From: Clostridia bacterium | Lineage (GTDB): Bacteria; Bacillota; Clostridia; Oscillospirales; Acutalibacteraceae | Assembly: GCA_017516485.1 (NCBI GenBank) | Contig: JAFXCH010000018.1 | Coordinates: forward strand, 1-44,920 | Length of the DNA: 44,920 nucleotides | Direction of reading: 5' to 3' | Shown here: piece after piece, positions 11,738 to 15,668 of the stretch | Position numbering within the stretch: the stretch's first letter is position 1 | Layout: each line of letters begins with the position of its first letter | Notes under the pieces: model-generated | Seen by the model: the letters and a program-made list of their open reading frames with translations, nothing else | Databases searched by the model: none | What the model was told of the DNA's origin: nothing | Made by a program: the position numbers and the translations under genes

Positions 11738-13075
11738 TTACTTTATTACGACTATTTTTTCTATACCGTAATGCTCAAACATTCTTATATGTTCATCCGT
11801 TATTATCTCACCGCTCACAGCAATAGGTATTGCAGGCGGACACGAAACCGTCGGCACTGCACAGATTCTGCCCTCTGACCCAGAAACCGGAATTTCTTCG
11901 CTCACAGCAAACACAGCGTCACGCACGGACAAAACGGACTTACCGCAAGGCAAAACAAATTCTTCCCTTGTGCGTTTAGTAAGCCTTATATTCTCAAAAG
12001 CTTTTTCAAGACGCTTAAAATCCTTTTCACTGTTGAACGGTGACACCATAAACACAACAAAATCTCTGTCGGCATACTCAGGCTCAATATCAAAACTGCG
12101 AAAATAATCGCCGATATTCTCAAAATCCTCAATTCCGTTATATCTGAAATCAGCCGTTATCTTAAGAGGCTCGGCAGATATATCCGAAATACTGTTTTGC
12201 GCCATAACCTTTCGCACATTTTCTATACGGTGAATACAACCGTTTATATCGGCACAGATTCGATCGCTCATATATCTGTTGCACATATCAAGCGACTGCA
12301 TAATAAGATACGACGGGCTTGTCGAACCGAAAAGCGACATTGAACGCACAGCACTTTCAGCAAAGCCGTATTTATCGTCTGCCGCTATATGCAGATATCC
12401 GCCGCCCGTAAGCACAGGCAGAGTTTTATGCGCCGAGTCACAGCACATATCAGCACCGAGAGCAATGGGGTGCATATTATTCTCACAAAAAGCAAGATAA
12501 GCACCGTGAGCGTTATCGACAAGAAGCGGCACGCCGTGTTCTTTACAAACATCAGACAAAGCTTTGATATCGCTTATACCGCCGAGATAATCGGGACTTG
12601 TGACATAAACCGCAAACGGCTTATATTCACACGCACCCAATGACTTTGCGAGCATTTCTGCAGTTATTACACAGCTGCATATACTGTCTGCCGATTCGGG
12701 ATAAATCCATTTCACATCAAAATCAAGCTTTGCCGCCGCATAGATAAACGCTTTATGAGCATTTCTGCCTGCAAGAACAAAAGGCTTTTTATCCTTTTCA
12801 GCATTCATCATACCGAGAAAAAGCATTGCGTGTATGCTCTGGGTTGAGCCTCCTGCGGAATAGAGAGTACGCGACGTACCGAAAAGTGAAGATGCATTAC
12901 GCTCGCTCCCGAGGATTATTCCCTCAGGCACAAAAAGCTCATCCGCACCCTTGATTTCGGTTATATCAAGGCTTTCACAGCCAAAAAAGGACACACCCTT
13001 ATGGCCCGGCATATGAAACCGAGCCTTGTCGCTTTGTGCATAAGCTTTCACAAAATCAACAATTGGTGTGTCCAT
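11738..13075 (-). CDS. Orn/Lys/Arg decarboxylase-family PLP enzyme (short form)
   Basis: Fold-type I amino acid decarboxylase. RFHMPGHKG at 19-27 opens the protein. VDNAHGAY (186-193) holds the Asp that contacts the pyridine nitrogen, and DSAHKTLP (213-220) supplies the PLP lysine, Lys217. At 445 residues it lacks the N-terminal wing domain of the large enterobacterial enzymes, like the short Gram-positive decarboxylases. Whether it acts on arginine, lysine or ornithine cannot be decided. The start lies 6 nt beyond the scfB stop, so it is very likely co-transcribed with the SCIFF genes; no functional link is known to me. Confidence 0.85.
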   Translation of the reverse strand: MDTPIVDFVKAYAQSDKARFHMPGHKGVSFFGCESLDITEIKGADELFVPEGIILGSERNASSLFGTSRTLYSAGGSTQSIHAMLFLGMMNAEKDKKPFVLAGRNAHKAFIYAAAKLDFDVKWIYPESADSICSCVITAEMLAKSLGACEYKPFAVYVTSPDYLGGISDIKALSDVCKEHGVPLLVDNAHGAYLAFCENNMHPIALGADMCCDSAHKTLPVLTGGGYLHIAADDKYGFAESAVRSMSLFGSTSPSYLIMQSLDMCNRYMSDRICADINGCIHRIENVRKVMAQNSISDISAEPLKITADFRYNGIEDFENIGDYFRSFDIEPEYADRDFVVFMVSPFNSEKDFKRLEKAFENIRLTKRTREEFVLPCGKSVLSVRDAVFAVSEEIPVSGSEGRICAVPTVSCPPAIPIAVSGEIITDEHIRMFEHYGIEKIVVIK

Positions 13076-13081
13076 AAATAT

Positions 13082-14449
13082 TTAAACCTCGTCAGCAATC
13101 TGAAGCATTACGGCACATTCGATACGCTTTTTGAAAAGCTCACAGCCGTATTCGTATATACCTGTAATCTTACCCGTTGCGTGATATGAATTGGCGGCGC
13201 ATCCACCTGAGCAGTAGAGCTTTGCCCAGCAGTCCTCGCACTCCTTGCGTGCGTATGCGTTGCAGAGCTTGAACTCGTTCTGCACCTCAGTATTTGAAAT
13301 ACCGTCGTAAATATTACCGAGCAGATATTTAGCATCACCTACAAACTGGTGGCAAGGATAAATATCACCTGTAGGTGTAACAGCAACATACTCCGTACCT
13401 GAGCCGCAGCCCGAAATACGCTTGTAAATACAGGGGCCGTGTTTAAGGTCGAGCATATAGTGGTAGAAGGTGAAGGGTCTGCCCTCACGCTTGCGTTTTA
13501 TCATCTCTTTGGCAAGTATCTCATACTGCTCAAAAAGCACAGGCAGGTCAGCCTCGGTAAGGGCACTCGCATCGCTCGGTGCACAGACTACGGGCTCCAT
13601 ACTAAGCTCAGTGAAGCCCATATCTGCCATATGGAAAATATCGTTGGTAAAGTCTGTATTTGCGTGAGTAAAAGTACCTCGCATATAGTAGCTCTTGTTA
13701 CCTCTGCGTTTTACAAACTCCTTAAACTTGGGCAAAATTATATCATAGCTGCCCTTACCGGTATAGTCTTTACGCAGGCGGTCATGCACTTCTTTTCTGC
13801 CATCAAGGCTGAGGACAACGTTGCTCATTTCCTTGTTGCTGAACTCAATAACGTCGTCATCAATAAGCATACCGTTAGTGGTAAGAGTAAAGCGGAAGTT
13901 CTTATTGTGAATCTTCTCCTGCTCACGGGCATAAGCAACAAGCTGCTTTACAACATCCCAATTCATAAGAGGCTCACCGCCGAAGAAGTCAACCTCAAGG
14001 TTGTGGCGTGTACCCGAGTTTTCGATAAGAAAGTCAAGTGCACGCTTACCAACTTCAAAACTCATCAGAGCACGCTCGCCGTGATACTTGCCCTGGCTTG
14101 CAAAGCAGTATTCACAGTTGAGGTTGCAGGTATGGGCAACGTGAAGGCACATAGCCTTGAGCACCGTATTTCTGTTTTTGAAATCAAAAGCCATATCGGC
14201 ATAGGTGTCGGGTGTATAGAGCTTCTGCATACTCTCAAGGCTCTTTACATCTTCGATACACTCGAGGCAATCCTGCTTTGTTACACCGTCAGCAGCATAT
14301 TTTGCACTGATTTCGTCTGCAATTTCATCTGCACTCTTTTCTTTGTAAAGTGCAATTATATCGTAAGCAACATCGTCGACAACATGGACAGAGCCGCTGC
14401 AAGTATCGAGCACGATGTTGTAACCGTTCAATTTATACTGATGTACCAT
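13082..14449 (-). CDS. scfB: SCIFF peptide maturase, radical SAM/SPASM thioether-forming enzyme
   Basis: A 455-residue radical SAM enzyme that installs a thioether crosslink in the SCIFF ranthipeptide precursor. The N-terminal 80 or so residues match the peptide-recognition part of ScfB. The CNLNCEYC motif holds Cys108, 112 and 115, the ligands of the SAM-cleaving 4Fe-4S cluster. The C-terminal SPASM/twitch region shows CGSGTEY, YPCHQF, CEDCWAKLYCSGGC and a last YGCELF, enough for two auxiliary clusters. The precursor gene lies just upstream at 14548-14697, and a PLP decarboxylase follows 6 nt downstream. GGAGTGA precedes the ATG at a rather long distance (about 11 nt). Confidence 0.93.
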   Translation of the reverse strand: MVHQYKLNGYNIVLDTCSGSVHVVDDVAYDIIALYKEKSADEIADEISAKYAADGVTKQDCLECIEDVKSLESMQKLYTPDTYADMAFDFKNRNTVLKAMCLHVAHTCNLNCEYCFASQGKYHGERALMSFEVGKRALDFLIENSGTRHNLEVDFFGGEPLMNWDVVKQLVAYAREQEKIHNKNFRFTLTTNGMLIDDDVIEFSNKEMSNVVLSLDGRKEVHDRLRKDYTGKGSYDIILPKFKEFVKRRGNKSYYMRGTFTHANTDFTNDIFHMADMGFTELSMEPVVCAPSDASALTEADLPVLFEQYEILAKEMIKRKREGRPFTFYHYMLDLKHGPCIYKRISGCGSGTEYVAVTPTGDIYPCHQFVGDAKYLLGNIYDGISNTEVQNEFKLCNAYARKECEDCWAKLYCSGGCAANSYHATGKITGIYEYGCELFKKRIECAVMLQIADEV

Positions 14450-14547: not shown

Positions 14548-14697
14548 TTAGTTTTCCTGAGCGTTTTCGCACTGCTGGTTAGCAACACCGCAGGATGTCT
14601 TGCAAGCGGACTGGCAAGAAGTCTGGCACTCGCCGCAACCGCCGTTTTCACAGCTCTTTACAAGATCTTTTGTTTCGATAGTCTTAATTCTCTCCAT
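14548..14697 (-). CDS. scfA: SCIFF ranthipeptide precursor, 49 residues
   Basis: A small ribosomally made peptide modified by ScfB. It reads MERIKTIETKDLVKSC and then a cysteine-rich core with CGECQTSC, QSACKTSC and GVANQQC. The six family cysteines are 21, 24, 28, 32, 36 and 43; an extra Cys16 makes seven. The core is nearly invariant in Clostridia, yet residue 37, right after CKTSC, is Gly where members I recall have Thr. GGAG lies 9 nt before the ATG, and a consensus promoter lies at 14763-14792. The product's role is unknown in the family; it has been proposed to be a signal. Confidence 0.93.
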   Translation of the reverse strand: MERIKTIETKDLVKSCENGGCGECQTSCQSACKTSCGVANQQCENAQEN

Positions 14698-14762
14698 TGT
14701 GGTTATCTCCAATCGTTTAAAATATTGAAAGGGTATAAGCTACCCTCTTAAATTACGGGTAA

Positions 14763-14795: not shown

Positions 14796-15668
14796 TTAAA
14801 GAAGAGGAAGTATTGTCTCCTTGAGATACTCAACCTGCTCGTCACTGAGCGGATCGAAAGGCTTGCGGCACACACCGAAATCAAAGCCGAGAAGGTTGAG
14901 CACAACCTTTTCTCCTGCCATAACGCCAACCTTACAGAGTGCTGTAATAATCTTGTTAGCCTGACACTGAAGCTCCTGAGCAGCCTTGATGTCACCACTC
15001 TCCCAGAATTTACGGATTTTGATGAATTTGTCAGCCATAAAGTTGTATGTAGAACCGATACCGCCGTCAACACCCATCGCAAGACCTGAAATCATCAGCT
15101 CATCAAAGCCGTTGTAAATGATTGCATCGGGGCAGCGGTCACGAATCTGCTGAAGCTTGAAGTAATCGTTTGATGTGTATTTAACACCTGCAATATTATC
15201 GTGTGCAAGAAGGTCTGCAATCTCATCAAGAGTAAGCTCAACGCCTGAAAAAGCCGGAATATTGTAAATAATAAGCGGAATGCTTACACTGTCGGCAATT
15301 GCCTTGTAGTGCTCGATAACCTGAGCATTACTGAATTTATAGTAAAAAGGTGCAACAGCAGAAACTGCATCATAGCCAATACTCTCGACATACTTTGCAT
15401 ACTCAACGGCCTGCTTTGTGGAAACTGTACCGACGTGAGCAATAAGTGTTACTCTGTCGCCTGCTGTATCTTTAACGGTCTTGTAAACTAATCTGCGCTC
15501 TTCTTCCGAAAGAAGGAAAGCCTCGCCTGTACTGCCTGCAACATAAAAGCCGTCAACACCCTGCTCAATATTTCTCTCAATGAGTTTTGCAAGCTCAGCT
15601 GTGTTCACGTTATCATTTGCATCAAACGGAGTCAGAAGTGCGGTGAAAATACCCTTTAAATTTTTCAT
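14796..15668 (-). CDS. nanA: N-acetylneuraminate lyase (DHDPS/NAL family)
   Basis: Splits sialic acid into N-acetylmannosamine and pyruvate in the cytosol. The 290-residue TIM barrel has GSTGEAFLL (from Gly45), Tyr135 in IIYNIPAFSG and the Schiff-base Lys163 in GVKYTS. GSTGE plus the YNIPAFSGV and GSTYN segments favour NanA over dihydrodipicolinate synthase, though other aldolases of the family remain possible. No nanE/nanK or sialic transporter is adjacent, so the rest of the pathway must lie elsewhere. AAAGGAA precedes the ATG. Confidence 0.85.
   Translation of the reverse strand: MKNLKGIFTALLTPFDANDNVNTAELAKLIERNIEQGVDGFYVAGSTGEAFLLSEEERRLVYKTVKDTAGDRVTLIAHVGTVSTKQAVEYAKYVESIGYDAVSAVAPFYYKFSNAQVIEHYKAIADSVSIPLIIYNIPAFSGVELTLDEIADLLAHDNIAGVKYTSNDYFKLQQIRDRCPDAIIYNGFDELMISGLAMGVDGGIGSTYNFMADKFIKIRKFWESGDIKAAQELQCQANKIITALCKVGVMAGEKVVLNLLGFDFGVCRKPFDPLSDEQVEYLKETILPLL

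Follow-up and report, generated by a model that had tools for sequence, protein, structure and literature searches.

The window analysed here, a stretch of 44,920 nucleotides from a Clostridia bacterium of the family Acutalibacteraceae, carries on its minus strand the genes for a SCIFF precursor peptide and its radical SAM/SPASM maturase. The precursor gene, scfA (positions 14548..14697), starts with ATG and, translated from the reverse complement, encodes 49 residues followed by a stop codon (MERIKTIETKDLVKSCENGGCGECQTSCQSACKTSCGVANQQCENAQEN); a likely ribosome-binding site, GGAG, recognised by inspection only, lies on the same strand nine bases before the start (14707..14710). The peptide reaches 77.7 bits with the SCIFF model TIGR03973 (cut-off 50) and 78 bits with the Pfam SCIFF model PF13165 (cut-off 27), and is the only TIGR03973 match in the source genome, whose assembly is about 91% complete. 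Because both models are matched over their cut-offs and the maturase gene lies on the same strand, scfA is not a chance open reading frame.

SCIFF peptides are recognised by six cysteines within about 45 residues. The window peptide has Cys21, Cys24, Cys28, Cys32, Cys36 and Cys43 and, as a seventh, Cys16 in the leader; its core reads CGECQTSC-QSACKTSC-G-VANQQC, with glycine as residue 37. The minus-strand translation thus confirms what the first-pass annotation had described, namely an otherwise canonical core, Gly37, an extra Cys16 and the numbering of the residues. The codons of interest, all read on the minus strand, are TGT for the extra Cys16 (14650..14652), TGC for Cys32, the thioether donor reported in reviews (14602..14604), ACA for Thr34, which reviews report as the acceptor in CteA co-expressed in E. 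coli (14596..14598), and GGT for Gly37, which takes the place of the Thr37 acceptor mapped in vitro (14587..14589).

The maturase gene, scfB (13082..14449, minus strand), begins 98 bases downstream of scfA and encodes a protein of 455 residues, identified by the SCIFF-maturase model TIGR03974 (768.5 bits, cut-off 425), by alignment to CteB and by its cluster cysteines. Its best structure match is CteB (5wgg; 582 bits over residues 1-450), the maturase of thermocellin (CteA) from Clostridium thermocellum, with which it shares the same cluster motifs. The CX3CX2C radical-SAM motif is formed by C108, C112 and C115, set in HTCNLNC in the window ScfB versus HDCNLRC in CteB, and the SPASM region contains C340, C348, C366, C404, C407, C413, C417 and C436. 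The PqqD-like N-terminal domain PF05402 scores 20.5 bits (cut-off 23.4), and residues 1-100 align with CteB. Freyrasin (PapA/PapB) and the sactipeptides are likewise radical-SAM thioether peptides, and ScfB matches the PapB model with 282 bits, under its cut-off of 340; two reviews (PMC8326336, PMC8172795) give six Cys-Asp beta bonds for freyrasin and alpha bonds for sactipeptides.

Six bases after scfB, on the same strand, lies a gene of the PLP-dependent OKR-decarboxylase family (11738..13075; PF01276, 101.6 bits), a putative member of the system. We discarded as a part of the system the lyase-family gene upstream of scfA (14796-15668), for which relatives (tblastn E 1e-10) occurred at only 3/368 loci, the window included; the two other relatives are 23% and 33% identical to its product, and many loci have short flanks.

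Frequency of Gly37 and conservation of the SCIFF core

We read 366 SCIFF loci in all, a total that is enriched for peptides with Ser32 (see below). Most of the loci come from two surveys whose genomes were evenly drawn. The family survey covered 150 genomes of the window's family, with a SCIFF in 110 and 111 loci read (G127 and G000 are counted here), and the class survey covered 196 genomes across the class, with a SCIFF in 163 and 148 loci read among the matches listed. A phylum-wide search matched in 162 genomes, and we read its best 30 loci, 27 of which were new; it carries little weight for other classes. The named set consists of the best 80 of 597 loci for a Ser-type ScfB query, and is biased toward that type. 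L245, found at the same place as L178, and L368, a wider copy of L020, were dropped before counting.

The first-pass annotation implied that Gly37 is rare, which is ruled out by its presence in 74 of the 258 SCIFFs readable at residue 37 in the two surveys (the class part among the matches listed). It had also considered that Gly37 might be common among SCIFFs with identical chemistry; the count bears out the commonness, and that half only. Residue 37 is Thr in 55, Gly in 44, Ser in 9 and Ala in 2 of the family loci (n=110, one further locus being truncated), Thr in 118 and Gly in 30 of the class loci (n=148, among the matches listed), and Thr in 26 and Gly in one of the 27 new phylum-wide loci (from the best 30 of 162 genomes). 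All four glycine codons are used at this position (GGT 65, GGC 34, GGA 8, GGG 1; n=108), which points to selection for glycine; together with its frequency in the family and among the class matches listed, this makes the residue look maintained. Named organisms with Gly37 are Faecalibacterium prausnitzii, F. longum, F. hattorii, F. gallinarum and Bacilliculturomica massiliensis. The Faecalibacterium SCIFFs (L301, L304, L307, L312, L282) resemble the window's SCIFF in having Gly37 and an OKR-family gene downstream, but their leaders lack Cys16. Ranthipeptide clusters have already been reported from Faecalibacterium genomes; the titles and abstract openings that we searched, a coverage that leaves out most subscription papers, contained no description of a Gly37 type, a Ser32 type or a linkage to a decarboxylase gene.

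The extra leader cysteine, also presented at first as unusual, is no rarity in Gly37 peptides either: 43/74 have one, compared with 18/172 peptides with Cys32 and Thr37 (both surveys, the class part among the matches listed). Their usual leader cysteine is Cys13, and Cys16 is found in 5/44 family Gly37 loci, including the window. An uncultured Christensenella (L308) has a Gly37 SCIFF with eight cysteines, two of them extra in the leader.

The block of residues 27-36 is nearly wholly invariant. Cys21, Cys24 and Cys28 are present without exception in the 366 loci read, as is Cys43 in the 365 that are readable there, and residue 34 is Thr in 363/366, with Val in the other three (L093, L106, L109), all of which keep Thr37. 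Residue 37 takes four small residues, Thr, Gly, Ser and Ala. Cys32 is absent from 59/366 loci of this Ser32-enriched set, and from 12/259 in the surveys (the class part among the matches listed). We found Ser32 in place of Cys32, the reported donor, at 58 loci, 47 of them from the named set, which was searched with such a query. Ser or Ala occupies position 37 in 57 of these 58 (examples L250-L281), the exception being L109, with Thr37 and an aberrant core; conversely, no peptide with Cys32 had Ser or Ala at 37 among the 366 loci read. Within the core (residues 21-41), the differences between the Gly and Ser types are essentially limited to positions 32 and 37, and positions 38 and 39 vary somewhat. 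The Ser32 loci keep Thr34 and have an intact ScfB, and their peptides have a sixth cysteine, placed in the leader or the tail, at 9/10 survey loci and 37/47 named-set loci. Separately, Cys36 is lost in L109 (Asn), L111 (Ser), L108 (Glu) and L028 (Ala), the first two also lacking Cys32; these four are possibly decaying or re-purposed SCIFF copies.

Maturase clades and neighbouring genes

Phylogenetic trees were built from the ScfB proteins, leaving out rows that had no ScfB or whose match was shorter than about 350 residues. Among the 325 proteins of the larger tree, a single clade of 162 rows (support 98) contains 104 partners of Gly37, 55 of Ser37, two of Ala37 and one of Thr37 peptides, and so takes in all the Gly37 and Ser37 partners, two of the three for Ala37 and one Thr37 row (L020). 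A 54-row tree under a site-mixture model recovers the same grouping (20 Gly, 10 Ser, 1 Thr; support 97), and here the nearest rows to the window ScfB are its congener L090 and then three from Faecalibacterium. Residue 37 is nearly fixed, as Thr, Gly or Ser, within each ScfB clade. Listing residue 37 against the paired ScfB, as the first-pass annotation had proposed, thus places all 104 Gly37 tree rows in one maturase clade, and Gly37 accordingly appears to be an ancient, maintained feature rather than something peculiar to the source genome. In all, the window peptide is no anomaly; it belongs to a known peptide family, in a form that is common and found throughout a clade.

The radical-SAM and SPASM cysteines of ScfB are kept in all three types. 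Twelve cysteines are conserved throughout 104 Gly-, 57 Ser- and 162 Thr-type rows, apart from gaps and a single Thr-type row that has Ser instead. Two other positions differ by type. Residue 107, beside the first cluster cysteine, is T in 91/104 Gly-type and D in 157/162 Thr-type rows, and residue 331 is Y in 104/104 Gly-type, 57/57 Ser-type and 4/162 Thr-type rows, following the clade even in L020. The pairing of T107 with Gly37 and of D107 with Thr37 at first suggested that residue 107 is a switch sensing residue 37. We rejected this, because the Ser type is mixed (n=57: D 32, G 21, A 3, T 1), the Gly37 rows L041, L044 and L048 keep D107, and L020, also with D107, does not fit; an early count of Asp107 in 9/10 Ser-type rows was not upheld in the larger set. 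At best, to judge from these alignments, the residue may serve as a clade marker. L020 (G083:C63) is a Thr37 SCIFF whose ScfB is nested inside the Gly37 clade, and the same genome holds a Gly37 SCIFF, L051, near the start of another contig; this pairing could reflect exchange or a mixed assembly.

The OKR-family gene also follows the types. Taking as assessable those loci whose flanks extend 1 kb or more upstream and 2.2 kb or more downstream from scfA, it adjoins scfAB in 53/60 Gly-, 9/10 Ser- and 0/110 Thr-type survey loci (the class part among the matches listed), that is, in 62/70 of the Gly and Ser types together, being absent in 8/70; with the named loci added, it is present at 115/135 assessable Gly/Ser-type loci. 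It lies either upstream or downstream of scfAB, for the most part according to which of two family branches it comes from, and the other neighbours of scfAB vary among the loci inspected. Exceptions outside the 110 assessable Thr-type loci are L020/L368 (Thr37 with a Gly-clade ScfB), with the gene downstream, and L247 (Thr37), with the gene upstream on the other strand. In a search of 14 Thr-type genomes, no family member turned up on the scfA contig at a distance of 60 kb or less from that gene. In three of these 14 genomes an OKR-family gene lies beside what we take to be tmk-, yaaQ- or holB-like genes. The distribution suggests a functional link of the OKR-family gene to the Gly and Ser types, although it falls short of showing function because these two types together form one clade.

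The suggestion of the first-pass annotation that the modification differs in this lineage therefore stands as something that may be so, since the Gly37 partners fall in one ScfB clade, have ScfB residues of their own and sit in a differing gene neighbourhood.

Candidate sites of the thioether ring

The ring site of SCIFFs is itself in dispute. In vitro work from 2016 and 2017 gave a Cys32-Thr37 bond in CteA and in Tte1186a, the SCIFF of Caldanaerobacter subterraneus that is paired with the maturase Tte1186, whereas a 2019 study in which E. coli expressed CteA together with CteB gave Cys32-Thr34, with labelling that pointed to the gamma carbon; the two reviews from which we take these results number Cys32, Thr34 and Thr37 of CteA as in the window peptide, report a single Cys32 bond for both peptides, and leave the conflict open (PMC8326336, PMC8172795). 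The first-pass annotation had named a Cys32-Thr37 crosslink, which agrees with the in vitro experiments and disagrees with the co-expression result. Its claim that the peptide has lost the side chain normally used holds insofar as Gly37 replaces the Thr37 of CteA and Tte1186a, so that a residue needed for a Cys32-Thr37 ring is absent, but which acceptor is the usual one is a matter of dispute, and Thr34, the other candidate, is intact. Both residues needed for a Cys32-Thr34 ring, Cys32 and Thr34, are present in the window peptide.

From the gene pair, the enzyme signatures, the census and the clades observed here, we infer expression, reaction and ring site of the Gly37 pair, and favour by a modest degree of confidence a working SCIFF (ranthipeptide) pair in which the most likely ring is Cys32-Thr34. 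The N-terminal recognition domain of ScfB would hold the leader (MERIKTIETKDLVKS...), the radical-SAM cluster would abstract a hydrogen from the acceptor residue, with Cys32 placed near a SPASM cluster, and one thioether ring would be closed between Cys32 and the acceptor. This acceptor would be the gamma carbon of Thr34, matching the CteA result from E. coli co-expression and giving a small ring, from Cys32 to Thr34, that should be indifferent to residue 37. Thr34 is the most likely acceptor because Gly37 has no side chain, and also the simplest, since it is present and almost invariant, and since Val, its sole substitute in the 366 loci read, also carries a gamma methyl. Its invariance argues weakly for such a role, however, because nearly all of the block 27-36 is invariant, and the Ser32/Ser37 group keeps Thr34 without Cys32, which indicates that it is conserved for some other reason too. 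Against a Cys32-Thr34 ring stand the two in vitro studies that mapped Thr37 (PMC8326336, PMC8172795) and the behaviour of position 37, which does not drift freely within clades.

Alternatively, residues 32 and 37 would be the true ring partners and the chemistry would be specific to each clade, using the Thr37 side chain in the Thr type and, through a glycyl radical, the Gly37 alpha carbon in the Gly type, much as in sactipeptides. We consider this rather unlikely for the window peptide. The positions at which the types diverge coincide with the two that in vitro work mapped as ring partners in the two orthologues (PMC8326336, PMC8172795), and the differences between the Gly and Ser cores are almost confined to them, which favours a real partnership. 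Residue 37 also matches the ScfB clade, and ScfB residues 107 and 331 differ by type. Nevertheless, position 32 changed independently no more than about three times in the tree, too few for a test: statistical coupling between 32 and 37 cannot reach significance with at most two supported independent pairs, or three when all branches are used. The mixed residue 107 of the Ser type, D107 in L041, L044 and L048, and the Thr37 of L020 beside an otherwise Gly-clade ScfB also fit poorly, and an alpha bond to Gly37 is at odds with the resemblance of ScfB to CteB, a non-alpha enzyme.

The Ser32 loci bear on a different and likewise improbable reading, in which the modification made in the native host would sit on other residues (Cys21, Cys24, Cys28, Cys43 or Cys36), and the bond to Cys32 observed with purified or heterologous enzymes would be one of several or a by-product. 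Cys21, Cys24, Cys28 and Cys43 are never missing where they can be read, Cys32 is, and the loci with Ser32 retain an intact ScfB. The search model itself favours these cysteines, though, and the single bond reported in CteA and Tte1186a involves Cys32 (PMC8326336, PMC8172795).

More speculative, and in our view doubtful, is the idea that the 32/37 pair forms the true ring in three clade-matched chemical types (Cys32/Thr37, Cys32/Gly37 and Ser32/Ser37), where the Gly type would have a Cys32-Gly37 alpha thioether, the Ser type a Ser32-O-C37 ether or a different ring, and the OKR-family PLP enzyme would take part in both; TQQ and darobactin provide precedents for C-O bonds formed by radical-SAM enzymes, according to one of the reviews (PMC8326336). 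Finally, that the window peptide is a decayed substrate, no longer cross-linked, would agree with the absence of the Thr37 mapped in vitro, but is highly improbable given a Gly37 conserved with synonymous codon variation, an otherwise nearly invariant core and an intact ScfB.

As to the family as a whole, a paper from 2017 states that all clear ScfA homologues appear functionally equivalent. Such an equivalence is doubtful because of the Ser32 group. A natural Gly37 clade, with a Ser32/Ser37 group inside it and intact, matched enzymes for both, makes the disputed ring site of SCIFF peptides directly testable.
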